From Cloacibacillus porcorum (lineage in GTDB: Bacteria; Synergistota; Synergistia; Synergistales; Synergistaceae): a DNA stretch of 64,000 nucleotides. The stretch is taken from assembly GCF_001701045.1 (NCBI RefSeq), contig NZ_CP016757.1, positions 1,853,501-1,917,500 on the forward strand, written 5' to 3'. Both the position numbers and the translations under genes were made by a program. The notes under the pieces were generated by a model that saw only the letters and a program-made list of their open reading frames with translations, was not told where the DNA came from and did no database searches. This document shows positions 10,327 to 61,627 of this stretch, piece after piece (the stretch's first letter is position 1; every line of letters begins with the position of its first letter).

Positions 10327-12426
10327 ATGAAAATAGATAATACCATAGAAATGATAGAGACTTTACCAATGACGAGGGCGCTGCGTACGGCCCTGGTAAT
10401 GTCCATCCCCATCCTGATGATCGGTTCCTTCTCGCTGATACTTAAGTCTCTTCCCATACCGGCCTATCAGCGCTTTTTAGAGATTTTTTTCGGCGGCGCG
10501 CTTCGTGATATTCTGGACATCGCCCACCGGGCGACGTTTGGGATATTTTCACTCTATATGGTGCTTGCGGTGAGCAGGAATTATTCGCAGGACAACAGCT
10601 CCGACCCGCTCATGTTTTACGGCGCACCGATCGCTTCGCTGATATCCTTCGTCATTTTATGCGGTTTTTTTTCCGGGCGTCCCTCAATAGCGGCTCTCGG
10701 CGTCAACGGCATGTTCACCGCCCTCCTATGCGCCGTATGCATACCTCCGGCATATCTTTGCTTTGTTAAGAGATTCGGCGGCAGGCGAAGGATATATACC
10801 AAAGGGGCGGATTATATATTCAACCTCGCGATCGGCTCCCTGCTGCCGCTCTTTCTGACGGTACTTTTCGTCTCTTCGCTTAACTATATTATCGTACAGT
10901 CATTCGGCGTCTCAGGGCTGTATGAACTATTGGTAAAGGGCGGACAGCACATTTTCAGCGGCAGGGAGCGTTCACTGAAAAGCGCGGTACTCTTCCTCGT
11001 ATCTTCAGGGGTGATGTGGTTCTTCGGCATCCACGGCAACAATGTGCTCGACAGTGTTATTAAAACCGTCTTTTACCCCGGCATAGAGGTAAACCATTCA
11101 ATGCTTGCCGTAGGGCTGGTCCCCAGCGAGATATTAACGAAGACCTTCTTTGACACCTTTGTATATATGGGCGGCTGCGGCGGCGCTATCTCGCTGTTGG
11201 CCGCCGTACTTATTTTTTCTAAGAGGCCCAGCAGCCGCAACCTCGCCAAGCTCGCTTTTCTGCCGATGCTCTTCAATGTCAACGAGATCATGCTCATCGG
11301 CCTGCCGGTGGTACTCAACCCAATATTCCTGATCCCCTTTATCCTGACGCCGATAACCTCATGTCTGATCTCATATGCCGCCTTTTACTTTGAACTGCTC
11401 CCTGTCACCGTCAACGCCGTCGAATGGACTACGCCGGTGCTCTACGGCGGCTATGCTTCGACAGGATCTATGGCCGGCGTGCTGCTGCAGCTGGTAAATA
11501 TGATCGTTGGCGTCTTCATCTACCGTCCCTTTATTCTCTTTTCAGACAAAGAGCAGGAGCTTATCTCCAACAAACAAATGAACGCCCTTGTGAGGCTGCT
11601 GCAGGAACAGGAGGTGAAACGCTCACCGGTGATGCTGACAGAGCTTTACGGAACGATGGGGGCCGTGGCGAAGGAGCTGGCGGAAGATCTCGATTACGCG
11701 CTTTTCTCACATGAACTGATGCTCTATTATCAGCCGCAGTTTGACGACAAAAGGCGCTGTATCGGCGCGGAGGCGCTGCTGCGCTGGAACCACCGCCGCT
11801 TCGGCTTTATCTATCCCCCACTTATCATAAAGCTGGCCGAAGAGAAGGGCTTCCTCTCGGAACTGGAAGAGAATATAATAATACGTGCCGCGAAGGATCT
11901 GCCGCTTGTGCAGAATGCCTTGGGCAGCGAAATATCCGTGAGCGTCAACGTATCCGGTCTGACGATCGAGACCGACGCCTTTGAACAGTTCCTGAAAAAA
12001 GCCGCTCTCAGCGGAAAGATAAACGCCGGAAAGATCAACCTCGAGGTCACAGAGCAGATGGCTCTCAGCTCCGACCCGCGAACGGAGGAGCGTCTCCGGA
12101 GGATATGCGCTTTGGGTTTTCATCTGGAGATCGACGATTTTTCCATGGGACATACGTCAGTCAAGTTTTTGCAGAGCGGCATCTTTGGAACGGTAAAGCT
12201 CGATGGAGCGATCATAAAGGATATCCTGCACAATCAGAGAAGCCGCGAGATAATCGCCTCCATCATGGGGCTCTCCCGCTCGCTCGGATTTAAGGTCATC
12301 GCCGAATATGTGGAGAACGAGGCCATCATGGAGGCGCTTGAGGAGATAGGCTGCCGAGCATACCAGGGGTACCTTTTCAGCCCGCCGCTGCCGCTTGATA
12401 GGCTGCCGGAGTCCGTCAAAAAATAA
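10327..12426 (+). CDS. PTS EIIC-like membrane domain fused to an EAL c-di-GMP phosphodiesterase
   Basis: A 699-residue fusion. Residues 1 to about 410 form a multi-helix domain of the PTS EIIC (lactose/cellobiose) type, with the signature FFGIHGNN near 235-242 and an NEIMLIGLPVVLNP segment. After a short linker an EAL domain (about 455-695) keeps the main catalytic signatures: EAL at 482-484, VNVS, EVTEQ, the DD pair in DDFSMG, KLDG, AEYVENE and QGYLF. It is therefore predicted to hydrolyse c-di-GMP in response to a sugar or to transport state. No EIIA or EIIB gene is nearby, so it probably senses rather than phosphorylates sugar. The lspA gene follows after 24 bases. Domain calls are firm; the ligand is unknown. 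Confidence 0.88.
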   Translation: MKIDNTIEMIETLPMTRALRTALVMSIPILMIGSFSLILKSLPIPAYQRFLEIFFGGALRDILDIAHRATFGIFSLYMVLAVSRNYSQDNSSDPLMFYGAPIASLISFVILCGFFSGRPSIAALGVNGMFTALLCAVCIPPAYLCFVKRFGGRRRIYTKGADYIFNLAIGSLLPLFLTVLFVSSLNYIIVQSFGVSGLYELLVKGGQHIFSGRERSLKSAVLFLVSSGVMWFFGIHGNNVLDSVIKTVFYPGIEVNHSMLAVGLVPSEILTKTFFDTFVYMGGCGGAISLLAAVLIFSKRPSSRNLAKLAFLPMLFNVNEIMLIGLPVVLNPIFLIPFILTPITSCLISYAAFYFELLPVTVNAVEWTTPVLYGGYASTGSMAGVLLQLVNMIVGVFIYRPFILFSDKEQELISNKQMNALVRLLQEQEVKRSPVMLTELYGTMGAVAKELAEDLDYALFSHELMLYYQPQFDDKRRCIGAEALLRWNHRRFGFIYPPLIIKLAEEKGFLSELEENIIIRAAKDLPLVQNALGSEISVSVNVSGLTIETDAFEQFLKKAALSGKINAGKINLEVTEQMALSSDPRTEERLRRICALGFHLEIDDFSMGHTSVKFLQSGIFGTVKLDGAIIKDILHNQRSREIIASIMGLSRSLGFKVIAEYVENEAIMEALEEIGCRAYQGYLFSPPLPLDRLPESVKK

Positions 12427-43321: not shown

Positions 43322-45736
43322 TTGACCCTCTTCATCCTCGCCGCACCCGGAACGGCACGCGCCGATTTGAAGCGGGACGACAACGGCTGTTACATCATCG
43401 CCACCTCGGAAGACCTTCGTGAATTTAACAGAAGAATCCATACCTCAGGCACCTACAAAATACCGCTCTCCGCCGACGCGCGCCTCACCGCCGACATCGA
43501 CCTCACTCAGGCGGACGGGACCACTACAGTGTGGGAACCTATCGGCAACTATAGCGAAAACGAGCGATACACAGGCACCTTCGACGGCACGGGCCATACA
43601 GTCAAGGGCTATCGGATAAATAAAGCCGACGAGATGGGGTTCTTCGGCACAGTCGGCGGCGGCACGGTGCGTAGGCTCACCGTCAGCGGCGATATTAATA
43701 TCACAGATAAGGGCAACCCCACCTACGCGGGCGGCGTCGCTGGAAACTGCTTCGGCACGATAGAGGGCTGCGTAAACACCGCCTCCCTGACCGTCTCCGC
43801 AGAAGACGTCAGAATAGGCGGCATCGTGGGAGACTGCATAGGGGGCACGATATCAAACTGCGTAAACAGCGGCGATATCGCCAACACCAGCGACAATATG
43901 GGTACCGGCGGCATCGCGGGAAAAAACGAAAGAAAGGGCACGATATCAAACTGCATCAACAGCGGCAATGTCTCAAACAACCTCAGGGGACACACCGGCG
44001 GCATCGTGGGACATAACTACGGCGACGGCAGCAAGATATCAAACTGCCTCAGCAGCGGCGGCAGGATCACAGGCGGCAACTCCAACGTTACCGGCGGCGT
44101 CGTGGGAGTCAACGAAAACAAAGGCACGGTATTAAACTGCGGCTGGCTGGGTTCGTCGGCAGACAACGGCGTGGGAAGTGGCATGGGCATCGTCACCAAC
44201 GTCAAATCACTATCTCCAGATAACGTAAATAAGAGCGTCGTCGCCCTCAGCGCGGATATCACAAAACAGGCCCTCAATAACGGCGATACGGCGACGATCA
44301 GCCTCTCCACCATCTATGGAGACAAAAAGGACTTCGGTACGTATGTGACCAGCATCAACGCGGCGGTATCCAGCCCCGATATACTCTCCGCCGACGTAAG
44401 CGGCGACATCGTCATCCTCACCGCTAAGAGCAAGGTCGGCATGAGGCACACCACCGTCACAGTAACCCTCTCGCCCGACCTTCATCCGACGGACTTCGAA
44501 ACCATGAACCCTTCAAGCAATTCCTCCGATCCGCCGCTGAAATTCACCTTCGGCGTCACGGTGTCGCCAAGGGTCTCAGGCGTCACTATCTACGGTGACA
44601 TCGCCAATCCCATTTATAAGGGCGGCACGCGGAAGCTCGATGCCATAGTGAAACCGAACGACGCGGGCAATAAAAATGTCTCCTGGAAAAGCAGCCGCGA
44701 CGACGTCGCAATAGTCAACGAAAATGGCCTTGTAACGGCAATCGCCGTGGGCAGCGCCGATATAACCGTGACCACCGAGGATACCGATGATGACGGGCAA
44801 CAGTGCACGGATACCTGCACAGTAACGGTCATCCCTGTAAACGTCACCTCCGTCGATATCTCGCAAAAGAGTTTATCCATCGACATGAACGACGAGGGAC
44901 GTACATACAAACTCACGGCCACCGTCCTCCCCGACAACGCCGAATACGACCAGGTCCGCTGGACGAGTTCAAATGAGAAGGTGGCCGTCGTATCGCCTGA
45001 CAAGAGCGACGCGAAGGCACTCACGGCATACGTCACGCCCATCAGCAAAGGCGAGACGTATATCACGGCAAGCGTCGGCGATCTGACGAGCGTTCCCTGC
45101 TTCGTCACCGTCATCCCCGTCTGGGCCGAGAGCGTAACGGTATCACCGGACATCCTCACGCTCGAAGCGGGCAAAAGCGCGAAACTATCCGCTCTGGTCG
45201 GCCCGGAGAAGGCCACCGACAAGAGCGTAAGCTGGAAGAGCGGCGATAAAAATATCGCCACCGTCAGCGAAAATGGCGAAGTATTCGCCCATAACCCCGG
45301 CGGCCCCGTCCTCATCACCGCCACCGCGAGCGGCGCAAAGGATGACGCTAATGTAAGAGCATCCTGCTCCCTCACCGTCACCGCTCCCCCGGTGCCGGTG
45401 GAGTCGGTGGAGATATCCCCCGAGGGCGCGGCGATAAAGGTCGGCGAGAGCTTCCGGTTCACCGCAAAAATACTGCTGGAGAACGCCGACAATAAGGGCG
45501 TCACCTGGAAGAGCGGCGACAAGAAGATCGCCACAGTGGACGCCAACGGTAAAGTGACGGCCGTCGCAGCCGGCGCCACCGCCATCACCGTCACGACCGT
45601 CGACGGTCTGAAGGCGGCCCAGGCCACCGTCTCCGTCAACAAGGTCTACAGCAGCGGCAGCGGCTGTGCCGCGGGCGTGGGGGCGCTGGCGCTCTTCACG
45701 CTGCTGCCGCTCTGTATGAGAAGAAAGAAAAGGTAA
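43322..45736 (+). CDS. GLUG/Big2-repeat surface protein with Synergist-CTERM-like tail
   Basis: Predicted cell-surface adhesin-like protein; 804 codons from the TTG, probably beginning upstream (see the C7 leader). The secretion signal ends at APGTARA-D. Residues about 115-295 carry GLUG-type repeats (GGIVGDCIGGTISNCVNSGDI and variants, period about 30). Four Ig-like Big2 modules follow from about 420 to 775, each with a VSWKSSRDDVAIVNENGLVTA-like pattern. The C-terminus YSSGSGCAAGVGALALFTLL-x-RRKKR fits the Synergist-CTERM sorting signal. Flanked by palindromes; no sortase or exosortase gene in the window. The bacterial surface role is inferred from architecture. Confidence 0.82.
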   Translation: MTLFILAAPGTARADLKRDDNGCYIIATSEDLREFNRRIHTSGTYKIPLSADARLTADIDLTQADGTTTVWEPIGNYSENERYTGTFDGTGHTVKGYRINKADEMGFFGTVGGGTVRRLTVSGDINITDKGNPTYAGGVAGNCFGTIEGCVNTASLTVSAEDVRIGGIVGDCIGGTISNCVNSGDIANTSDNMGTGGIAGKNERKGTISNCINSGNVSNNLRGHTGGIVGHNYGDGSKISNCLSSGGRITGGNSNVTGGVVGVNENKGTVLNCGWLGSSADNGVGSGMGIVTNVKSLSPDNVNKSVVALSADITKQALNNGDTATISLSTIYGDKKDFGTYVTSINAAVSSPDILSADVSGDIVILTAKSKVGMRHTTVTVTLSPDLHPTDFETMNPSSNSSDPPLKFTFGVTVSPRVSGVTIYGDIANPIYKGGTRKLDAIVKPNDAGNKNVSWKSSRDDVAIVNENGLVTAIAVGSADITVTTEDTDDDGQQCTDTCTVTVIPVNVTSVDISQKSLSIDMNDEGRTYKLTATVLPDNAEYDQVRWTSSNEKVAVVSPDKSDAKALTAYVTPISKGETYITASVGDLTSVPCFVTVIPVWAESVTVSPDILTLEAGKSAKLSALVGPEKATDKSVSWKSGDKNIATVSENGEVFAHNPGGPVLITATASGAKDDANVRASCSLTVTAPPVPVESVEISPEGAAIKVGESFRFTAKILLENADNKGVTWKSGDKKIATVDANGKVTAVAAGATAITVTTVDGLKAAQATVSVNKVYSSGSGCAAGVGALALFTLLPLCMRRKKR

Positions 45737-50583: not shown

Positions 50584-51080
50584 TATAATTCACTACCCTG
50601 GGTCATATTAGATTTCCTCAACTCAGCCATTCTGTCGCGAAGCTGCGCCGCGTATTCGTAATTTTCCGATTTTACGGCCGCTTCCATTTTCTTTGAGAGC
50701 TCAGAAAGCTCCTCCTCCGCCGTCATCACGCGCGCGGAGGTGTCATCTTTTACTTCTTCCTCAGCGGGTACGCTTTGGGACTTCGTACGCTCCTCAAACA
50801 TCGCATCAGGCAGCACTCCGCCGCAGTGCGGACAGAGGCGTGCCGCCCTCTTTCTGGTGTAGGCGCCCCGCAGCGCTGGGATCACCAGCTCTTTGAAGGC
50901 CTCTTCTATATCCATCAGCCCCTCGACCGAGAAGGACATTTTCAATAGATTCGAGACGTCATCCAGATGCAGATGGGCTTCCGCGCACTCCCGGCAAAGA
51001 TGCTGTACCTGCCGCTCCCCGTTCACCACATTGACAAGATGAATCTCCGCGCGTCTGACTTTACACTGTTCGCATAACAT
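50583..51080 (-). CDS. mcsA: McsA-like UvrB/UvrC-motif zinc protein
   Basis: A 165-residue protein with paired cysteine motifs (LCEQCK at the N-terminus, LCRECAE near 29 and LCPHCG near 83) and a C-terminal UVR motif (KSENYEYAAQLRDRMAEL), the architecture of McsA. In Bacillus McsA activates the arginine kinase McsB and modulates CtsR. Here no mcsB lies between it and clpC. It may act directly on ClpC or CtsR. Operon order ctsR-mcsA-clpC. Confidence 0.9.
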
Positions 51081-51091
51081 GGCAACGCCTC

Positions 51092-51577
51092 CTAACTAAG
51101 CGCAAGGCTCGTAAGTAACTTTTTCAACAGGTCAGCCCTCATGATCTCCCGTTTATAGATGGAGATATCATAAAGGGTGCGCCCGTACTCCTCCTGACTC
51201 CGCAGGGCGACTTCGATGAGAAGCCTCTCTCTGGCGGATATCAGCTTTCTGTTCTGCAGGTTCATCAGCAGCCGCTTAGATTCCTGCTCCGATATTTTAT
51301 TGCCGATAAGGTCCTCAAGGTGCAGGACCTCTTCGTCACAATTTTTAAATGTCAGCTGTACCACGCGGATGTAACCGTGACCTCCGCGCTGGCTCTCGAC
51401 CAGAAATCCGTTTTCCGGCGCGAATCTGCTTCTCAGGACATAATTTATCTGACTTGGAACGCATTCAAAGAGTTCCGCGAGATCTTTTCTGCGAAGTGAA
51501 ATGGTGCCTCCGCCATTCTCTTCAAGCAGCTGTCCGATATACTCTTCTATTTTCCTCGTAAGACTCGATGACGACAA
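51092..51577 (-). CDS. ctsR: transcriptional repressor of class III stress genes CtsR
   Basis: Winged-helix repressor of clp genes, about 161 residues. The family core SLTRKIEEYIGQLLEENG, LAELFECVPSQINYVLRSRF and the glycine-rich wing ESQRGGHGYIRVVQL, which is the heat-sensing tetraglycine-type loop region, are all present, as is the C-terminal dimer part (LLKKLLTSLAL). I favour a TTG start at 51577 after GGAG with eight-base spacing, matching the family's usual beginning; the frame is open 18 codons further upstream. First gene of its own regulon. Confidence 0.92.
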   Translation of the reverse strand: MSSSSLTRKIEEYIGQLLEENGGGTISLRRKDLAELFECVPSQINYVLRSRFAPENGFLVESQRGGHGYIRVVQLTFKNCDEEVLHLEDLIGNKISEQESKRLLMNLQNRKLISARERLLIEVALRSQEEYGRTLYDISIYKREIMRADLLKKLLTSLALS

Positions 51578-51636
51578 TGTCTTCACTCCGTTTCTCTGAT
51601 TTTGGACAAAGGCCCGCCTGAATTTAACCAATAATG

Positions 51637-51676
51637 ATTATATATTAATGGTCAATATAAGTCAATCATAGTCAAA
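51637..51676 (-). promoter_or_regulatory. ctsR promoter with three-heptad CtsR box
   Basis: Minus strand TTGACT, exactly 17 bases, TATAAT. On the plus strand the heptads GGTCAAT, AGTCAAT and AGTCAAA begin at 51650, 51660 and 51670, each separated by three bases. This is the tandem (A/G)GTCAAN arrangement known for CtsR binding, and it covers the -35 element and spacer. A fourth, degenerate repeat may follow. Confidence 0.85.
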
Positions 51677-51683
51677 AAGACAA

Positions 51684-51710
51684 AGTAAAAGCCGCCCCAT
51701 AAAGGGCGGC
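51684..51710 (-). terminator. terminator of the skp-like gene
   Basis: Minus strand GCCGCCC-TTTATG-GGGCGGC followed by TTTTAC, ahead of the ctsR promoter region. Confidence 0.8.
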
Positions 51711-51737
51711 GCGCGTATTCAGCCTATTTTACAGCTG

Positions 51738-52157
51738 TTACTTCTTAAGGGCGTTGACGACGTCCTGTGTGAGATCGATGCCGCCGTAGTAGACAAGCGC
51801 CTTGTTTACAACGATCGTGACGCCCTTCTGCTTGGCGACCTTCGCGATCGTGTCATTCACCTCTTTGAGTACAGGATTCATCAGCTTTGCCTCTTCTTCC
51901 CGCATTTCAAACTGGAGGTTCTGAACTATTTCGCTCTTTTTCTTCTCGTCGCTCTCCTTGTCAAAGGCAGCCTTCGCCGCGTTCGACTTCTTCTTGCCAA
52001 GCTCGTCAAGCTGCTTCTGAGCCTGCTGGAACTTCGAGAACTGCTGCAGCACTCCCATATCGTCTACGTAGCCAACCGTGTCGTCCGCCGCGTATGAAAT
52101 CGCACCGAACGCAAAAAGCGCTGCTATGGCAAGCAGTAATGCCGCTGTTTTCTTCAC
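51738..52157 (-). CDS. OmpH/Skp-family periplasmic chaperone
   Basis: Small exported protein of about 139 residues: signal peptide (KKTAALLLAIAALFAFGAISYA-A cleavage), then VGYVDDMGVLQQF typical of the OmpH strand, a long charged coiled-coil (about 40-95) forming the tentacles, and a closing strand GVTIVVNKALVYYGGIDLTQDVV. Skp holds unfolded outer-membrane proteins in the periplasm. The start is a GTG preceded by GGAGGTAATAGG. No BamA or lpxD gene adjoins it, unlike many genomes. Confidence 0.88.
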   Translation of the reverse strand: MKKTAALLLAIAALFAFGAISYAADDTVGYVDDMGVLQQFSKFQQAQKQLDELGKKKSNAAKAAFDKESDEKKKSEIVQNLQFEMREEEAKLMNPVLKEVNDTIAKVAKQKGVTIVVNKALVYYGGIDLTQDVVNALKK

Positions 52158-52366
52158 CCTATTACCTCCTGCGTAAATACTGATATCACTGATACTCTTA
52201 TCCTCAATGACGCACAAAGAAATTTTATCTCTCGAAGCGGATATTGTCCATAGCGGAGCCGCACTTTCAGTATGCGGTATTCAGCTTCACCGCCTCCGGC
52301 AAAATCAAAGTACACGAAACAGCCGAACAGTACCGGGTTTCCGAATGACGACGCAGCTGAAGAGCA

Positions 52367-53293
52367 TCAGACGTCCGCCGCACCGTTTACGCCCAGCTCG
52401 TAGAGCCGCGAAGTTTCGGCGTAGGTACGGGCGATGTCGCGCAGAATGTCGCGGTGTTCGAAATCTTTATTGCAGACGATATTTATCTCCCGCTCCATGC
52501 TGAGGTTCTCGACGGGCAGCACAGTGATCTTGCCCTTCCGCAGTTCGTCAAGGCAGACGCTCCTCGCGAGGATCGATATGCCGAAGCCGCGCCGGATGAG
52601 GTCTTTGATGGTCGCGATATTGTTGACCTCTAGGATGACGTTGAATTCGTCGATCGAGATATTGAGGCTCTCAAGGTGCGACACAAAGAGGTTGCGCGTG
52701 CCTGAGTCGGGCAGGCGCAGGATCATCTTCTCTTTTTTAAGCTCCTCGATGGTGATGATCCCATGTTTCGCGAGCGGGTTGTCATTTGAGAGGGCGGCGA
52801 CAAGGAGGTCCGTGTCGAGGTGCACGGTCCAAAATCCTCCCTCCACGCACTTGCCCTCGACGATGGCGATGTCCACCTCGTAATTTTTCAGTTTCTCATA
52901 GAGGTTGTTTATTGTATCGGTGACGACTGTCATCTTCACGCCGTCGTTAATGCTGCAGTACCGCGCGAGAGCCTCGGCGATCTGGTTGCTCTCCGAGGTA
53001 TGAGTGATGCCGACAGTTATCAGTTTCAGGAAACGCTTTTCCTCGTGGATGTTTTTGCGCAGCTCGTCATACATGTTGGTGAAGCGTTTCGCGTAGCGCA
53101 GAAGTATCTCTCCCTCCGCCGTCAGCCGCAGCTCCCCCTCTTTGCGGTGGAATATCTTTATACCGAACTCATGTTCAAGCTGTTTCACATGCTGACTCAC
53201 CGCAGGCTGCGTGAGTGAGAGTTCGGCGGCGGCGCGAGTGAAGCTCATAGTCTCGCAGACCTTTATCAAGGTTCTTACCTTCTGGTCAAGCAT
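52367..53293 (-). CDS. LysR-type transcriptional regulator
   Basis: A 308-residue LTTR. The N-terminal winged helix has MSFTRAAAELSLTQPAVSQHVKQLEHEFG, followed by a linker helix and a two-lobed effector-binding domain (about 95-300). The start ATG follows GGAGGTAAGGAGA. It is divergent from the cation:proton antiporter gene, the classic LTTR-target layout, so it probably regulates that gene and itself. The effector is unknown. Confidence 0.92.
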   Translation of the reverse strand: MLDQKVRTLIKVCETMSFTRAAAELSLTQPAVSQHVKQLEHEFGIKIFHRKEGELRLTAEGEILLRYAKRFTNMYDELRKNIHEEKRFLKLITVGITHTSESNQIAEALARYCSINDGVKMTVVTDTINNLYEKLKNYEVDIAIVEGKCVEGGFWTVHLDTDLLVAALSNDNPLAKHGIITIEELKKEKMILRLPDSGTRNLFVSHLESLNISIDEFNVILEVNNIATIKDLIRRGFGISILARSVCLDELRKGKITVLPVENLSMEREINIVCNKDFEHRDILRDIARTYAETSRLYELGVNGAADV

Positions 53294-53427
53294 TCTCCTT
53301 ACCTCCCACCGATATAACAAAATTTTATCACATATAAATATTTCATAATTTTACTTTATCCACTTCTCCTATATAATATCACTAAATATTCAAATTATTC
53401 AATATTTATAGAGGGGAGGTTGACGCG
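53294..53427. promoter_or_regulatory. divergent promoter region of the LysR and antiporter genes
   Basis: A very A/T-rich 134-bp stretch with several TATAAT-like boxes on both strands (for example TATAAT in CTATATAATATC) and short dyads of the T-N11-A type. It should hold the LTTR binding site, but I cannot single it out. Confidence 0.4.
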
Positions 53428-54639
53428 ATGGCTGCCATAGCTATCCATTCACATACGTCTACATTGGTACTTTTATCTCTGTCACTGATTCTTTTCGCGG
53501 GATTTTTCGCCACGAGGGTCACGAAGCTTTTCAGGCTTCCCAACGTAAGCGGATATATCATCGCGGGGATGCTCATCGGTCCCGGAATGCTGCACATCAT
53601 CCCCGAGGCGACGATCGAGAATCTTAGCTTTATCAGCGATGTCGCGCTGGCCTTTATCGCCTTTGACGTCGGCAGGTTTTTTAAAAAGGAGGTCATCTGC
53701 GGCAGCGGCACGAAGGTGGTCGTGATAACTATTTTCGAGGCTCTCGTCGCGGGAGTCGCCGTCTCTGTCGCGATGCGCTTCATGTTTTCTTTTTCGTGGG
53801 ATTTTTCATTGCTTCTCGGCGCGATCGCGACTGCTACGGCCCCCGCAAGCACGCTGATGACGATCAACCAGTACGGCGCGAAGGGCGAGTTTGTGAATAC
53901 GCTTCTGCAGGTTGTCGCCTTTGACGACGCCGTCTGCCTATTCGCCTTTACGTTGGCAACTGCCTTCATCGGCATCAGCGGCAACGAGGGCAAGGGACTT
54001 GTCAACCTCCTGGCGCCGCTCTTCTTCAACATCCTGGCCCTCGTCCTCGGCTTTCTGAGCGGCCTCGTCCTGAAAAGGATGATCACGGAGAAGCGGAGCA
54101 ATGAAAACCGGCTGATCCTCGTGATCGCGTTTTTGCTCGCGATCTCCGGTATCTGCGTGATACTCAACGTTTCGCCGCTGCTCTCTTGTATGCTTTTCGG
54201 TGCGGTCTATATCAACCTCACCGAGGACAGGGAGCTCTACAGGCAGATAAATAATTTTTCGCCGCCGATCATGTCCACCTTTTTCATCTACTCCGGCATG
54301 AGCCTCGACCTGGGCAGCCTAAAGGCCTTCGGCGCGGCGGGCGTGGTCTATTTCCTGATCCGCATCGCGGGAAAGTACGCGGGAGCCTACGCCGGATGCG
54401 CGCTCACCGGCAGCGCCTGTAAGGTGAAGAGTCTGCTGGGGCTCGCGCTGATACCGCAGGCCGGCGTCGCCATCGGCCTCGCCTTTCTCGCCCAGCGCAT
54501 CCTGCCGCCGGATATGGGAGACATGCTGCTGACAATAATACTCGCCTCTTCGGTACTCTATGAGCTTGCAGGGCCGGGCGCGGCTAAGTGCGCGCTCGTG
54601 CTTTCGGGAGAGATCCCCAGCCCTCACCGTAAGGAATAG
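53428..54639 (+). CDS. cation:proton antiporter (CPA2/Na+-H+ exchanger family)
   Basis: Inner-membrane antiporter of 403 residues with about twelve helices. Typical parts are the FRLPNVSGYIIAGMLIGPG segment, the GAIATATAPASTLMTINQYGAKG ion-path stretch and the VVAFDDAVCLFAFTLA motif, where the Asp pair corresponds to the ion-binding acidic site. It has no C-terminal TrkA-N domain, so it is the short form. GAGGGGAGG lies before the ATG. Divergent from the LysR regulator, which may control it. Ion (Na+ or K+) uncertain. Confidence 0.9.
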   Translation: MAAIAIHSHTSTLVLLSLSLILFAGFFATRVTKLFRLPNVSGYIIAGMLIGPGMLHIIPEATIENLSFISDVALAFIAFDVGRFFKKEVICGSGTKVVVITIFEALVAGVAVSVAMRFMFSFSWDFSLLLGAIATATAPASTLMTINQYGAKGEFVNTLLQVVAFDDAVCLFAFTLATAFIGISGNEGKGLVNLLAPLFFNILALVLGFLSGLVLKRMITEKRSNENRLILVIAFLLAISGICVILNVSPLLSCMLFGAVYINLTEDRELYRQINNFSPPIMSTFFIYSGMSLDLGSLKAFGAAGVVYFLIRIAGKYAGAYAGCALTGSACKVKSLLGLALIPQAGVAIGLAFLAQRILPPDMGDMLLTIILASSVLYELAGPGAAKCALVLSGEIPSPHRKE

Positions 54640-54875
54640 CCGCATCCATCGCAGCGGTGACGGCAGCTGTTGTTTTTTATTCGTTTAAAATAACTTTTAA
54701 GCGATTCCCTTTTTGAATGAAATACGATATAGTGTATTCATACTTGCCATTGCAGATATGCGCGGCGGTGTCCGCCTTAGTATGCATATGCGCCTGGGTG
54801 CTTGTTATTTTTATATCCGCATGGTTTTACAGTTTTCAGGCAATTATTATGTTGTATCTAGGGTGAGACATTCAG

Positions 54876-57104
54876 GTGATGAAAAGCTCCAGAGGAAAGG
54901 TAACAGTTTCCAGAAAGCTGCCGCTGTTTATAACAGCGCTGGTAAACGCAGCGCTCCTTGCCGCGGTATTTTTTCTCATGGGCAGGGTACAGAATCTGCT
55001 CAATTCCGATACTAAGATCAACTTGACAGAGATAGTAACCCAAAATAAAGACGTTATTACAAGCAAGCTGATGCTCGAGGTCAATAACCTTGATCTTGCC
55101 GCGAAACAGCTGGCCGATCACTATAACAGCGGAAAACAGATGAAGTCCTATTTTATAAAGTTTGTCAAACAGACCGGTGATAAAAATTTGTTCTTCGCGT
55201 TGGGGGACGGTATGGCGGTCTTTCCAGACGGAAAAGAGCTGGACATCTCAGGAAGACGTTATTTCAGACTGGCTATGGAGGGAATCAGCAATATATCGGA
55301 TCAAATCGTGTCAAGAATGAATGGAGACAACGTCTTTATCATCAGCACGCCAGTGTATCATGATAGGAAAGTCGTTGGCACGGTACAGAAGTCATATACA
55401 CTGCCTGAGATGTACAAGCTATGTTCCGTATCTCTTTTTTCCTCGCAGGGGTTCATGTATATCATAAACGACAAGGGATATATACTCATCAGCTCCACAC
55501 AGAATGAGTACAGCCGCGAGTCGGATAATTATTTCCGCATGCTTTACGCTGAAAATCCAGAGGCGGCAAGGCAGCTTGAAAAAGATATCCGTGCAAATAG
55601 ACCGGGTTTTATGGAGACAGCCGTAGGCGGGAAAAAGATATTCTCTGCCTATACGCCGATCGATCAGGTATACGACTGGTATCTCATTTCGAGTGTTGCA
55701 ACTAATGCCGTCTCTCCGAATGCAAGTATCGTGATAAAGCTCTTCTACTTCATCCTTTGCGTTATCGTACTGATTTGCGGACTCAGCATGGCCTATTTCC
55801 TCCACTATAAAAACCGGCAGGGCGAAATGTTCAGAAAGATAGCTTTCGTCGACCCGATAACCGGCGGCAGCACTTACGCAAAGTTCACCTTAGATATGCA
55901 GGAAGTGCTTGGAGAGCCAGGAGATGTCCACTACAGCCTCTTTACTTTTGACATCGATAATTTTAAATATATAAACGGACTCTACGGCTTCGATTTCGGC
56001 GACAAAGTCCTTCGCCGTATCTATGAGTTTTTCGCAGAACGCCTGAACAAGGGAGAGTTCATCGCACGCGTTTACAGCGACCGCTTTATCGCGCTGCTGA
56101 GGGACAGAGATTCCAGGCACATCAACCATCTCTTCTCCGCCGAACTGCAGGTAGAAGAGGTATCGGTCTACCTTTCCGCTGGACTGTATGCGATCGCCAA
56201 CAAAAATGAAAGCATCAGCCTGATGCTTGACAAGGCAAAGATAGCAGCACAGACAGTCAAGGGAATCCGTTATAAGCATGTGGCCGTCTATTCGGAGGAA
56301 TTTGACCGACGTATGATACACGACGAGCAGACTAAGCGCGCAATAGAGTCAGCTTTAGCCAACGACGAGATCATACCCTTTTTCCAGCCAAAGGTCGATA
56401 TCAAAACAGGAAGACTGACTGGCGCGGAGGCGCTTGCGCGCTGGCGCAGGAGCGACGGGCAGCTCGTACCCCCTGGAGAGTTTATCCCTGTCTGCGAACG
56501 GACGGGACTTGTCGTCGCGCTTGATCTGAAAATATTTGAAAAAACGTTGGAATTTCTTGCAGCGCAGATGAAAAAACAAGTCCGTACGCTGCCGGTTTCT
56601 GTTAACTTTTCACGGGCGCATTTCATGACCGCCAATTTCATTGATAAATTGACAGACAGACTGCGTAAATACAGCGTTCCTCCCGAACTTATTGAAGTAG
56701 AACTTACAGAAACAGACTTCATTGCGGACAAGGATATGGTCGGTAAGTTTATTGAAGAGCTGCACGCCAATGGGCTCGCCATTGCTATGGATGATTTTGG
56801 TTCCGGCTATTCATCGCTGAACATGCTCAAAGATATTCCGATCGACGTCCTAAAAATCGACCAGGGATTCCTGAGAGAGGACACGGACAGCGAACGCCAG
56901 CGGGCAATATTCGCGGCGATAGCTCAAATGGCATCAAAGCTACAGATCAAAATAGTCGTGGAAGGGGTTGAGACGCTGGAGAACGTGGAAATGATGAGAG
57001 AGTACGGCTGTTTTATCGCACAGGGATATTACTATGCGAAGCCCATGGACCGGGCCGCTTTTGAAAAACTTCTTGAGGTGGGAAAGATATGTCCAGAAAA
57101 ATAA
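54876..57104 (+). CDS. membrane sensor with degenerate GGDEF and intact EAL domain
   Basis: A 742-residue c-di-GMP protein. Two membrane helices (about 15-37 and 288-310) enclose a Cache-like extracytoplasmic sensor. The GGDEF domain (about 325-470) has VYSDRF at 399-404 instead of GGDEF, so cyclase activity is probably lost and it may bind GTP only. The EAL domain (about 485-735) is intact: EAL at 518-520, ELTET, DDFGSGYSSL, KIDQ, EGVET and QGYYY. It is a predicted phosphodiesterase regulated from outside the membrane. The start is a GTG after GGGTGAG. Its end overlaps the sugar-binding-protein gene by 16 bases. Confidence 0.9.
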   Translation: MMKSSRGKVTVSRKLPLFITALVNAALLAAVFFLMGRVQNLLNSDTKINLTEIVTQNKDVITSKLMLEVNNLDLAAKQLADHYNSGKQMKSYFIKFVKQTGDKNLFFALGDGMAVFPDGKELDISGRRYFRLAMEGISNISDQIVSRMNGDNVFIISTPVYHDRKVVGTVQKSYTLPEMYKLCSVSLFSSQGFMYIINDKGYILISSTQNEYSRESDNYFRMLYAENPEAARQLEKDIRANRPGFMETAVGGKKIFSAYTPIDQVYDWYLISSVATNAVSPNASIVIKLFYFILCVIVLICGLSMAYFLHYKNRQGEMFRKIAFVDPITGGSTYAKFTLDMQEVLGEPGDVHYSLFTFDIDNFKYINGLYGFDFGDKVLRRIYEFFAERLNKGEFIARVYSDRFIALLRDRDSRHINHLFSAELQVEEVSVYLSAGLYAIANKNESISLMLDKAKIAAQTVKGIRYKHVAVYSEEFDRRMIHDEQTKRAIESALANDEIIPFFQPKVDIKTGRLTGAEALARWRRSDGQLVPPGEFIPVCERTGLVVALDLKIFEKTLEFLAAQMKKQVRTLPVSVNFSRAHFMTANFIDKLTDRLRKYSVPPELIEVELTETDFIADKDMVGKFIEELHANGLAIAMDDFGSGYSSLNMLKDIPIDVLKIDQGFLREDTDSERQRAIFAAIAQMASKLQIKIVVEGVETLENVEMMREYGCFIAQGYYYAKPMDRAAFEKLLEVGKICPEK

Positions 57105-58105
57105 CGATTGCCGTACTGACTGTGCTGTTCGTGGCGGCAGCTACCATCATGTTTCACCGAGCCGACGAAAAAAAAGATGTAAAGATCGGCGTCTCCATTG
57201 GCGTCGGCAACGCCATCCGCTGGGAAAATGAAAAAAGATACATGGAGGCGCGCGCGAAAGAGCTAGGCGCTAATATAGAGGTGCGCCTTAACAAGACAAA
57301 CACGCCAAAGACACAGCAGGAAGACTGCCGGGAGATGATAGACAAAGGTATCGACGTACTGATACTGACACCGCGAAGCGTCGCCAATGTAGATAATATT
57401 CTGGAGTACGCGAAAAGCAAGAATGTCCCGGTAATATGTTATGCGCGCGTGGTGCTTGGGAAAAAAATTGACCTTTTCGTCGGCTATGACAGCGCACGCA
57501 TCGGTCAAAAGATGGGGCAGTATATATCTGAGGCGGTATATAAAGGCGATTATATCCTTCTGCGCGGCGATTCAGGCGATAATAACGCGGCACTGCTATA
57601 TGAGGGAGCGATGCGTTACATATCACAAATTAGAAGCGACATAAATATCATCCTCGACTGCGCCGTCCCAGGTTGGTCTCCCTCAGAGGCCAAGCGAATT
57701 GTTAAGGAGGCCATATCCGCCAACGGTAACAGGATCGATGCGATCCTGTCCCCTAACGACAAAATAGCCGAGGCCTGCGCCGAAGCACTTGAAGAACTGG
57801 GGATCAAAAATCATGTCGCCATCACAGGCATGGACGCCGAACTGGAAGCGGTAAGACGCATTGTCAAAGGCAGGCAGGACGTCACCTTTTACATGGACCT
57901 CAAAGAATTGTCCGCCACGGCGGTCAATGAAGCTTTTCATATGGCGAGGGGAGAAAAGGTGAACGTAAACGCTGACTTCGACAACCACAGTGGCGGCACT
58001 GTACCCTCAAATCTAATAACCGGTCAGCTTGTCACTAAAGAAAACCTCAACAAAGTCCTCATCGACAGCGGTTATTTTACAAAAGAAGAAGTTTACGGAA
58101 AATAG
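57089..58105 (+). CDS. periplasmic sugar-binding protein (XylF/RbsB type) without transporter genes
   Basis: A 338-residue type I periplasmic binding protein. An N-terminal hydrophobic segment (TIAVLTVLFVAAATIMF) exports or anchors it; no lipobox. The core follows XylF/RbsB-like lines: VKIGVSIGVGNAIRWE, MIDKGIDVLILTPRSV, FVGYDSARIGQKMGQYI, LLRGDSGDNNAALLYEGAM, DAILSPNDKIAEACAEAL and VAITGMDAELEAV. ABC ATPase and permease genes are absent on both sides. Because it overlaps the sensor/EAL gene, it most likely hands a ligand to that sensor's external domain instead of to a transporter. The ligand is not known. Confidence 0.88.
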   Translation: MSRKITIAVLTVLFVAAATIMFHRADEKKDVKIGVSIGVGNAIRWENEKRYMEARAKELGANIEVRLNKTNTPKTQQEDCREMIDKGIDVLILTPRSVANVDNILEYAKSKNVPVICYARVVLGKKIDLFVGYDSARIGQKMGQYISEAVYKGDYILLRGDSGDNNAALLYEGAMRYISQIRSDINIILDCAVPGWSPSEAKRIVKEAISANGNRIDAILSPNDKIAEACAEALEELGIKNHVAITGMDAELEAVRRIVKGRQDVTFYMDLKELSATAVNEAFHMARGEKVNVNADFDNHSGGTVPSNLITGQLVTKENLNKVLIDSGYFTKEEVYGK

Positions 58106-58334
58106 CGAAAAGCGACATAGGACACTTTACTGTAAAGATGCAAACCTGGCGGCACTGGTATCCCCGAGAGCTGATCTGTACCGACTGCAAAGTGCCGGCA
58201 ATAGAAGGAACCATCAACATGGAGCCGCCGGTCTGCAGGGACGTCGCCGCGGCGGTCGTTTAGATAAAAAACACGGTAAATATCCTGTTCTGTAAAAATA
58301 AATCTCACCCCATTTTTTATAATCAGCTGTGTTA

Positions 58335-58349
58335 TGTTAATATTTAACA
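58335..58349. promoter_or_regulatory. TGTTAA-TAT-TTAACA palindrome upstream of the PfkB-type gene
   Basis: A perfect 6-3-6 inverted repeat, 31 bases before the start codon of the carbohydrate kinase and about 12 bases downstream of a TATAAT (58317-58322). Possible operator. The remaining 58.1-58.3 kb gap shows no gene. Confidence 0.4.
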
Positions 58350-58379
58350 CGTAAAGAACGCCGTGAAGGAGAATCATCT

Positions 58380-59300
58380 ATGTCTGCAGAAACTGTCGTC
58401 TTCGGAACCGTATTTATGGACTGCAAGGGCTTTGCCGCTTACCGCTATGACCCATTGGGGAGAAATGTCGGCTCGGTGAGATTTATCCACGGCGGGGTCG
58501 GACGCAACGTCGCGGAGGACATGGCGGCCATCGGCGCAAAGGTCTCGTTCGTCTCCTCAGTCGACGGCAACGGACTCGGCATCGAGGTGCTCAACAGGCT
58601 GAAAGATGAGGGTATCGACGTCACCCATGTGCGGCGAGCCGCCTCTTCCGGCATGGGGTTATGGCTTGCGGTCATGGACCAGAACGGAGATCTTGCCGCC
58701 TCCATCTCGCAGATGCCTGACCTCTCCATTATGGAGGATATCGTCCGGGAAGAGGGCGAGTCGATCATCGCCGGCTGCCGGAACATCGTCCTTGAGCTTG
58801 ACCTCAACGATTATATTTCGGACACAGTCCTCTCCCTCGCGAAGAGGTATAACAAAAAGGTCTACGGTATAACGGGAAATATGGAGGTCATCCTCCGCAA
58901 CCGCGCCATGCTCGGCGGCCTTGAGTGTTATATCTGCAATGAGACGGAAGCTGGACGGCTTTTTGAGAGGGAGGTCCGCGCGCGGGAACCGGAACAGGTG
59001 CTCACGCTGCTGCGCGGATACGTCGACGCCAACGGTCTTAAATCAATGGTGGTGACTCTGGGAGAATACGGCTCCGTATACTATGATGCCGCCTCGGGGG
59101 AATTTGGCTTTTGTTCCTCTATAGAAACAAAGGTAACAGACACAAGCGGCGCTGGCGACGCCTTTTTCGCGGGAACCACGGAGGCGCTGATAAGGGGCTT
59201 TTCCCTGCGTCAGGCGGTAGGCTACGGCACGAGGCTTGCTTCGTGGATCATAGAGGTGGCAGAGCCCACGCGCGCGCCTCTGCCGGGAAGTTTGTTTTAG
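58380..59300 (+). CDS. PfkB-family carbohydrate/nucleoside kinase
   Basis: Ribokinase-fold kinase of 306 residues. PfkB signature 1 is the HGGVGRNVAEDMAAIGAKV segment (about 38-56) and signature 2 is DTSGAGDAFFAG (about 257-268), with the catalytic Asp in GAGD. Substrate candidates are a sugar or a nucleoside such as pseudouridine. It follows the sugar-binding-protein gene in the same direction but 274 bases away with its own promoter region, so a functional link is only suggested. AAGGAG lies before the ATG. Convergent with the PurA-like gene. Confidence 0.87.
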   Translation: MSAETVVFGTVFMDCKGFAAYRYDPLGRNVGSVRFIHGGVGRNVAEDMAAIGAKVSFVSSVDGNGLGIEVLNRLKDEGIDVTHVRRAASSGMGLWLAVMDQNGDLAASISQMPDLSIMEDIVREEGESIIAGCRNIVLELDLNDYISDTVLSLAKRYNKKVYGITGNMEVILRNRAMLGGLECYICNETEAGRLFEREVRAREPEQVLTLLRGYVDANGLKSMVVTLGEYGSVYYDAASGEFGFCSSIETKVTDTSGAGDAFFAGTTEALIRGFSLRQAVGYGTRLASWIIEVAEPTRAPLPGSLF

Positions 59301-59333
59301 CGGCTTCGGCGCTTTCGCCTTTCGGCCTGCGGG

Positions 59334-60623
59334 TCAATTTATCCGGTAGAGGGCGTTGCCCCACTGGGTTCCAAGGCCGGTCCAGATGACGCGCAGCCCC
59401 ATAAAATCCTCGATAAAACGGATATAGGCCTGAGCCTGCGGCGGCAGCAGATTGAAGTCGGTGCATCCAGGCAGCTCGTCGCGCCAGCCCTCGAAGGCGG
59501 CGTATACCGGTTCGGCGGCGGCGGACTCTTCGGCGGTGAGGTCGCCGCTCGTGCGCAGCTCGCCCCCTACCATGTAACCGGTGCATATTTTCAGCTCGTC
59601 TATCCCCGTAAGGACGTCAAGTTTCGTCACGGCGAGAAGGTCCGCGCCGTTGATCTGCGCGGCATATTTAAGCGCCGGCAGGTCAAGCCAGCCGATGCGC
59701 CTCGGAGTCTCCCCTATTTTGTCGTATTCGCTGCCGCGCGTCCTGATAAAGGCGGCAACTGCGCTCTTATCCTCCGTGATAAAGGGGCCCGGCCCGCTTT
59801 TCGTGCAGTAGGCCTTAGCGGCGCCGATTATCCGCAGCGAGGCGCTATGGCGCAGTCCCGCGCTGAGAAAGGCCGCGGGGGCGATGGTCGTCCCCGGCAG
59901 GACATAGGGATATACGCCGCAGCTGAGATCGTTAAGGCTGCCGCTGCAGCCAGCGAAGAGGGTGCCGATGTTGCGCTCCACAGCCCTGGAGACAGCTTCG
60001 TCCACCGGGCCGATATAGGGCAGCAGCCGCTGTCCCTCTTTCATTATCTTAGTGAAGAGTTTAGCGGGGTCCATCGGCTTTTCGTTGTATATCTTTTCAA
60101 AGTATTCGTTTTTAATCTTGAGGTTCAGTTCAAGCCTTTCGCGCAGCCGCTCGGGAGCAAGCAGATCCCCCGCCCTGATTCCGAGACGGCGCACGTTGTC
60201 CGTAACCGCGTGACCGTAGCCGCGCTGTTCCATCGTGCGGTTCAGATCATGGCCAAGCAGGCGTCCGGCCAGGACGTCGAGCCTTTTATGATAGTCAAGG
60301 ATCAGCGGGCAGCGCGGGCTGATGAGCAGCCGCGAGCGGAATACTCCCGCCGCCGTGAGTCCGGCGATCTCCTCCGATATCTTCTCAAGGTCAAGGGTCA
60401 CCCCGTGGGTTATAACGCAGAGCTTCCCCGCGTGGTGGATGCCGCAGGGCAAATAGTCGAGCGTAAAATGTTCGCCGCCGGCGGTTATCTCATGGCCTCC
60501 GGAGGCGGAACCGTGAAACCGCACAATGACCTCAGAGCGGTTCGCGAAAAAGTCAAGCAGTCGGTTCTTACCCTCCTGACCCCATTGCAGGCCGACGACG
60601 ATGTTATTTTCAGAGGAGACCAT
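59334..60623 (-). CDS. divergent adenylosuccinate synthetase-like protein
   Basis: A 429-residue protein of the PurA fold (full length). Retained parts include WGxEGK, Gly-His (GGHEI, His44), LILDYH, GVYPYV, RRIGWLD and VTKLDVLTG-x-KIC-x-GY. Key positions differ from canonical PurA: the catalytic Asp of WGDEGK is Gln16, NAGHT is SGGHE, the IGTTGRGIGP IMP-loop is replaced by NRTMEQRGYGH, and GAQGTLLD has become GCSGSLND. It may use another substrate, or be a non-catalytic paralogue. Last gene of the envC-ctpA-yibQ operon; its ATG overlaps the stop codon before it, with GGAGG upstream. Confidence 0.8.
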   Translation of the reverse strand: MVSSENNIVVGLQWGQEGKNRLLDFFANRSEVIVRFHGSASGGHEITAGGEHFTLDYLPCGIHHAGKLCVITHGVTLDLEKISEEIAGLTAAGVFRSRLLISPRCPLILDYHKRLDVLAGRLLGHDLNRTMEQRGYGHAVTDNVRRLGIRAGDLLAPERLRERLELNLKIKNEYFEKIYNEKPMDPAKLFTKIMKEGQRLLPYIGPVDEAVSRAVERNIGTLFAGCSGSLNDLSCGVYPYVLPGTTIAPAAFLSAGLRHSASLRIIGAAKAYCTKSGPGPFITEDKSAVAAFIRTRGSEYDKIGETPRRIGWLDLPALKYAAQINGADLLAVTKLDVLTGIDELKICTGYMVGGELRTSGDLTAEESAAAEPVYAAFEGWRDELPGCTDFNLLPPQAQAYIRFIEDFMGLRVIWTGLGTQWGNALYRIN

Positions 60624-61627
60624 CAGATACCTCCTTCCAGTTCAGCAGAGTTATCTTTCATGAGTTTGAACATTTCGGGAATCGTTACCAGCTTTACGGG
60701 CAGCTCTTTGTAGTTTTTATTAAGCTCTTCCAGAAACATCACCGTAGATGGGCGGAAGTGACATATTACGACCAGCGAACCCCGCCGCTGGGCATTTTTT
60801 ACGATCTCGCGGAAGCGGGCGGCAATGGCGTTTTTGTCGGCGGTGTTGTCCAGAAATCCGCGGTTTTGTACAGAGGGGACCCCCGCCGCCACAGCGGTCT
60901 GGTAGGCGACGCTCCTGCCTGAGGTACGGCTGTCGACGAAAAGGAGGCCTCGCTCTTTGAGCTCCGCCATCACCGGCTCCATCAGCTTGGCGTCGGCGGT
61001 GGCGAGCGAACCCCGGTGGTTGTTTATGCCGACGACGCCGGGCAGCGAATCAAGGGCGGCGGCGGTCTTCTGCCGTACCTCTGCCGCGCCCATACCTTTG
61101 CCGATTATATACTGCGAGCTGTCCTTGTCTATCTCCGCCTGCATCGGCAGGTGCAACAGGCAGGGAATCCCCTTGGACTCCGCAAGCGCCAGCGTATCTT
61201 TTGAATGGCGCAGATAGGGCATTATCGCCCAGGTGAGCGGAATGTCCAGCGCCGCGACACGTTTTGTATATTCAATCTGCCCTCCGCCGTCATCGACGAT
61301 GAGGGCCAGCAACGGCACGGGGCCGCCGTATTTTTCATCCACCGGCGATTTTTTGCTTGCGGGACTATCCTCTTTTTCTTTTTTGGGCGTATCAAGAGAG
61401 ACCACGGCAACATCGGCCGAAGCGGACGGCTCCCTGTCTTTCAGCTTCGCGTCCGCGCTGCTGTCGGCGCTGACGGCAACAGTGCCGCTGTCCTGCGATT
61501 TTTCGGCGACCGGAGCGCCGAGGCGTCCGGCCACCACATATATAAGAGCCGCAATAAGGAGCAGCAACAGAGCCAGTCTTATTACGCGGGAACCGCCGCT
61601 TCCCTCTTTTCGGTAGTGCTTACCCAT
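60623..61627 (-). CDS. divergent polysaccharide deacetylase family protein (YibQ/DUF610 type)
   Basis: A 334-residue envelope protein: N-terminal signal anchor (VIRLALLLLLIAALIYVVAG), a Ser/Lys/Glu-rich linker to about residue 100, then the divergent polysaccharide deacetylase domain (LALIVDDGGGQ, LTWAIMPYLRHS, LLHLPMQAE, GVVGINNHRGSLAT, FVDSRTSG, VICHFRPSTV). The His and Asp pattern suggests a metal site. In E. coli yibQ follows envC; the same order here, with ctpA between, points to peptidoglycan remodelling at division. Confidence 0.88.
   Translation of the reverse strand: MGKHYRKEGSGGSRVIRLALLLLLIAALIYVVAGRLGAPVAEKSQDSGTVAVSADSSADAKLKDREPSASADVAVVSLDTPKKEKEDSPASKKSPVDEKYGGPVPLLALIVDDGGGQIEYTKRVAALDIPLTWAIMPYLRHSKDTLALAESKGIPCLLHLPMQAEIDKDSSQYIIGKGMGAAEVRQKTAAALDSLPGVVGINNHRGSLATADAKLMEPVMAELKERGLLFVDSRTSGRSVAYQTAVAAGVPSVQNRGFLDNTADKNAIAARFREIVKNAQRRGSLVVICHFRPSTVMFLEELNKNYKELPVKLVTIPEMFKLMKDNSAELEGGI

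Follow-up and report, generated by a model that had tools for sequence, protein, structure and literature searches.

Binding proteins (SBPs) that gate diguanylate cyclases or phosphodiesterases form an acknowledged receptor class (PMC9602780). In the NspS-MbaA system of V. cholerae, which is also found in Sinorhizobium meliloti, a ligand-loaded SBP alters c-di-GMP turnover through a GGDEF-EAL receptor, and in V. cholerae the two adjacent, co-transcribed genes share 16 bp (PMC9993111). In Salmonella, the dCache_1 ectodomain of the c-di-GMP enzyme STM1987 needs the periplasmic binding protein ArtI to respond (PMC8846402). SBPs also dock on membrane sensors in XylFII-LytS of Clostridia (LytS-YesN), where the SBP is XylF-like, and in LuxP-LuxQ, where it sits on the sensor ectodomain in both apo and loaded forms (PMC6321045). 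No paper on a XylF-class SBP gating an EAL protein was found in the open-licence literature.

Layout of the locus and its closest parallels

In the window (the whole stretch of 64,000 nucleotides of the Cloacibacillus porcorum genome analysed here), the gene of a membrane EAL sensor overlaps that of a XylF-class SBP. The features of the locus are as follows:

52259..58334, no strand: block of ~6 kb with the LysR, Na+/H+ exchanger family, sensor and SBP genes, absent from the sister species
52367-53320, minus strand: LysR regulator gene
53428-54639, plus strand: Na+/H+ exchanger family gene
54640..54875, plus strand: intergenic leader after the exchanger gene, with a terminator-like hairpin at 54651-54673 (consensus matches only)
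54879..57104, plus strand: sensor of 741 aa, with TM1, dCache_1 ectodomain, TM2, degenerate GGDEF (YSDRF) and intact EAL (from ORF and Pfam)
57089..57104, plus strand: overlap of the sensor and SBP reading frames, 16 nt in different frames (from the sequence)
57089..58105, plus strand: XylF-class (Peripla_BP_4) SBP of 338 aa, with an N-terminal hydrophobic helix and no lipobox (from ORF and Pfam)

The sensor may start at GTG 54876, although the next codon, ATG 54879, is the better candidate. The SBP starts at ATG 57089, and just 5' of it, within the sensor gene, lies GAGGTGG, which resembles a ribosome-binding site; the two genes may thus be translationally coupled. Because a terminator-like hairpin, recognised by consensus only, follows the upstream exchanger gene, the pair probably forms its own transcription unit with its own promoter. 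A search for Rfam families and riboswitches returned only tRNAs, with no match in the leader.

The sequence-only reading had described a XylF/RbsB-like binding protein whose gene overlaps by 16 bases that of a two-helix Cache-like sensor with a degenerate GGDEF and an intact EAL domain, and had noticed no ABC transporter genes nearby. All of these elements were recovered: the frames share the 16 nt listed above, the sensor and the SBP belong to the classes named (see below), and no ABC genes occur among those read at 50-64 kb (ClpC-like, Skp-like, LysR, Na+/H+ exchanger, PfkB, PurA-like and others, several named from translations). Elsewhere in the window, a second c-di-GMP phosphodiesterase with a sugar-transporter-like sensory module, a PTS EIIC (PF02378) fused to EAL (PF00563), is encoded at 10327-12426 (plus strand), and a probable surface protein of 804 aa, which combines a GLUG motif with four Ig-like repeats of the Big_2 type, at 43322-45736 (plus strand).

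The locus resembles NspS-MbaA in that the SBP gene adjoins a membrane GGDEF-EAL gene with an overlap or at most 20 bp between them (16-nt overlap here, 9 nt in Eubacterium) and in that a sensor with two transmembrane helices combines a periplasmic domain with an EAL domain that has its catalytic residues. However, NspS is a PotD-type polyamine binder whereas the SBP here is of the Peripla_BP_4/XylF class, MbaA has SGDEF, both diguanylate cyclase and phosphodiesterase activity and a putative HAMP domain whereas only EAL is intact in the present sensor, and the SBP gene stands first there but second here, after the sensor gene on the same strand. STM1987 is a diguanylate cyclase, whereas the EAL domain here appears to be of the phosphodiesterase type; ArtI is an arginine SBP that belongs to a transporter, and its gene is not known to lie next to that of STM1987. 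XylFII-LytS likewise joins a XylF-like SBP to a membrane sensor, and similar gene sets were seen in Clostridia, but its output is a histidine kinase and response regulator and its SBPs fall in a clade separate from the EAL-paired ones. LuxP-LuxQ, whose sensor ectodomain is tandem-PAS/dCache-like, differs in its AI-2 ligand and histidine kinase output, and shares with the present pair at least the SBP superfamily. Since NspS-MbaA is an SBP-gated GGDEF-EAL receptor with a 16-bp overlap in V. cholerae, it is a far closer precedent than LuxP-LuxQ, which the sequence-only reading had taken as its parallel.

The sensor and its binding protein

The sensor scores 50.6 bits for dCache_1 (cut-off 45), 52.3 for GGDEF and 229.7 for EAL in Pfam, and consists of a short cytoplasmic start, TM1, the ectodomain (approximately residues 36-276), TM2 and the cytoplasmic domains. 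Its YSDRF sequence departs from a functional GGDEF-type motif (SGDEF), and all 14 of the 14 RocR-type catalytic positions checked in EAL are present, with a complete metal- and substrate-binding set (Q503, E517, R521, N576, E608, T610, E611, D638, D639, K659, D661, E695, E698, and Q715). The sensor is predicted to have phosphodiesterase activity.

The SBP matches Peripla_BP_4 at 166.4 bits, and its best NCBIfam matches are XylF models. Because these scores (198.6 and 204 bits) lie far under the equivalog cut-offs (389.6 and 504, respectively), the protein is best regarded as XylF-like, not as XylF. The closest solved relative is E. coli XylF (PDB 3m9w; phmmer 1.5e-48), which serves XylGH transport. 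Most pocket residues are kept in the window SBP, and all three paired SBPs (including those from Eubacterium, see below) have Arg16, Trp17, Arg91, Asp135, Asn137, Trp169, Asn196, and Asp222 (XylF numbering), but Asp90 and Lys242 of XylF are Ala and Met in all three. In the XylF structure these positions belong to the sugar pocket. Among 27 other XylF-like SBPs, Asp90 is altered in only one (Ser) and Lys242 in two (Phe and Arg). Retention of most of the pocket together with replacement of Asp90 and Lys242 suggests that the ligand is probably small, polyhydroxylated and sugar-like, though not D-xylose. A ligand of the LuxP/AI-2 type was considered as well, with no evidence either way.

A tree of 30 XylF-like proteins unites the three paired SBPs in one clade with support of 100/100, whose stem is long at 1.69 changes per column. 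This clade sits on the transporter-linked side, away from all histidine-kinase-linked SBPs, which group together with support of 87/98. Since the two kinds of SBP occupy separate clades, XylF-like SBPs were probably recruited to signalling separately for EAL sensors and for histidine kinases. The Eubacterium paired SBPs are lipoproteins (lipobox LLSGC), whereas the window SBP has no lipobox. By inspection, no clear signal-peptidase site follows its hydrophobic helix (57089-57160), and on these two grounds the window SBP may remain attached to the inner membrane.

Occurrence and history of the pair

An exact-peptide-pattern scan of 84,980 species' genomes returned one locus, in Eubacterium callanderi, where the orthologous sensor adjoins the SBP gene upstream in the same order and strand, with 9 nt between the genes and identities of 66% (SBP) and 55% (sensor). 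A second Eubacterium genome, a congener very close in these genes, carries the same pair. Comparison of the two Eubacterium species indicates purifying selection (dN/dS 0.04 and 0.07). Both Eubacterium pairs have flanking genes different from those of the window and no CUT2 transporter genes beside them. Further close homologues of either protein were found neither in 188 host-phylum genomes nor in 391 Clostridia and 67 Eubacteriales; a search of smaller orders with a three-row SBP alignment gave nothing new, and plasmid records gave only ordinary XylF-like proteins, approximately 34% identity being the best among the matches listed. The distant dCache sensors checked in Clostridia have no neighbouring SBP of the XylF-like family.

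The sequence-only reading had called for a search for the adjacent pair across Synergistota, and the outcome went against conservation there: the pair occurs nowhere else among the 188 genomes, which otherwise contain only distant SBPs and sensors, with no EAL gene adjoining the nearest SBPs read, and its conservation instead runs across phyla. The same reading would have been contradicted by relatives with unlinked genes, yet no such counter-example appeared, both genes being linked in all three genomes (across two phyla) that have a close homologue of either. Recurrence of order and strand in Eubacterium with a spacing of 9 nt makes the adjacency more than chance. With the pair in only two independent lineages, the linkage carries limited statistical weight.

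In the sister species (one congeneric genome), window positions 51000-52258 and 58335-61339 map approximately 100 nt apart; the flanking genes are present and the ~6-kb block is missing. Because this site is empty and the only close relatives are in Eubacterium, the simplest reading is a probable horizontal gain of both genes together. It is possible that the pair was instead lost in the sister species, although this would require many losses elsewhere. GC3 is 0.56-0.57 in the pair, against 0.58-0.77 in the genes around it, and reaches 0.74-0.75 in the LysR and exchanger genes of the same block, a difference suggesting that the latter two may have arrived separately from the pair. The downstream PfkB kinase was rejected as a component of the system, being syntenic in the sister species, which has no pair.

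Genes for 3-hydroxyisobutyrate-dehydrogenase-like, four-carbon sugar-acid kinase-like (SBD_N/NBD_C) and cyclase-family proteins lie downstream of the Eubacterium pair (L031:9228-12367, plus strand); they may possibly hint at a sugar-acid ligand. Several other proteins with binding domains were observed. A 942-aa protein encoded at ~2.212 Mb of C1 in the host genome (L231:3504-6329, minus strand) has SBP_bac_3 fused to GGDEF and EAL, the SBP thus being covalently part of an EAL sensor. No SBP of the XylF-like family stands beside any of the other EAL genes checked, which are most of those in this genome. Another genus of the family encodes an apparent fusion of a CUT2-type permease with a XylF-like SBP (802 aa, read from translation; L021:1465-3873, minus strand), and an 824-aa frame (L121:6106-8580, plus strand) carries Peripla_BP_4 in its C-terminal part and no recognised Pfam domain in its N-terminal part.

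A proposed dedicated receptor and its alternatives

We consider it likely that the two genes encode a real, dedicated pair in which docking of the SBP on the sensor switches EAL activity. Both proteins would then constitute one receptor. The SBP, placed outside the cytoplasmic membrane (in the periplasm of the window host and lipid-anchored in Eubacterium), would bind a small polyhydroxylated, sugar-like ligand, probably other than D-xylose, and dock on the sensor ectodomain; its open/closed or docked/undocked state would be relayed by the long first helix and by TM2 into the cytoplasm. There, the EAL domain would hydrolyse c-di-GMP, and what is left of GGDEF would serve at most as a regulator that binds GTP. 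Here we infer the docking, the sign of regulation and the ligand class. AF2 models of the ectodomain and SBP, made with two sequences, were of a quality unfit for fold searches (single-chain mean pLDDT 53.7), and no complex was obtained.

Alternatively, the SBP might be an accessory transport protein for a distant ABC transporter, with the linkage reflecting shared regulation or chance co-transfer. Its closest relatives beyond the pair clade are indeed transporter-linked XylF-like proteins, and in Clostridia XylF-like cousins adjoin XylGH-type genes and/or a histidine kinase and response regulator (domains confirmed by Pfam at two loci only, the others assigned by size, motifs and order). The host genome also has RbsA-like fused ATPases in DUF3798-type systems, which makes promiscuous transport conceivable. 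However, these ATPases adjoin two-permease systems, at least one of them with a DUF3798 SBP, and no XylH-type partner was found in the host genome. The window SBP is its sole Peripla_BP_4 protein over the cut-off; among the 20 PF02653 permease genes of this genome are one B6/BMP-like pair, DUF3798-type systems and LivHM-type pairs accompanied by LivFG-type ATPases, and the SBPs of the four LivHM-type systems tested are of the branched-chain or Peripla_BP_6 type. No SBP/XylG/XylH set adjoins the pair or was seen elsewhere in this genome, and the dedicated permease/ATPase partner that the sequence-only reading had named as its refutation could not be recognised there. The pair clade has, moreover, changed two near-invariant sugar-pocket residues, and the Eubacterium copies, too, lack adjacent CUT2 transporter genes. 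We regard a transport role as improbable.

It is also conceivable that the dCache ectodomain binds a ligand of its own and that the SBP acts as a ligand concentrator, a second independent input or a ligand competitor. The ectodomain exceeds the Pfam cut-off for dCache_1, and such domains often bind small ligands directly, usually in the distal module. Between the window and the Eubacterium lineage, however, the distal Cache module shows the lowest conservation within the ectodomain (47% identity, against 64% for helix 1 and 62% for the proximal module). Most of the unpaired dCache-GGDEF-EAL sensors compared, by contrast, conserve it about as well as the other two parts or better; an orthologous control was nearly flat (72/67/69). 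The KRMGI and NVYAVP motifs common to unpaired relatives are also missing from the paired sensors. This shift in constraint, seen in one orthologous comparison, would fit input via protein contact and not via a conserved distal small-ligand site; we regard direct sensing by the ectodomain as unlikely. The ratio of dCache to EAL identity was given up as evidence because it mainly separates orthologues from paralogues. That sensor and SBP are functionally unrelated and merely adjacent could be argued from the few independent occurrences, but order, strand and near-zero spacing agree between two phyla in which the flanking genes differ, and in one of them the genes overlap; we regard this reading as very improbable.

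The dedicated SBP-sensor unit proposed by the sequence-only reading is supported by its co-inheritance in unrelated contexts, by the lack of a CUT2 sugar transporter for the SBP in the genome and by the divergence of the SBP from transport SBPs. The novelty it implied is not, given that SBP-gated logic is already known from NspS-MbaA; new are instead the XylF class of the SBP, the changes in its sugar pocket and the passage of the pair between distantly related bacteria. Few c-di-GMP enzymes have a known input, and a closely linked SBP-EAL pair whose pocket is of the sugar type brings the ligand within reach of direct testing. If the proposed receptor is real, SBP gating of c-di-GMP, so far a matter of polyamines and amino acids in Proteobacteria, would extend to carbohydrates and to Firmicutes and Synergistota. 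The gene pair also hints at how an entire receptor may pass between monoderm and diderm hosts if its SBP is anchored differently in each.
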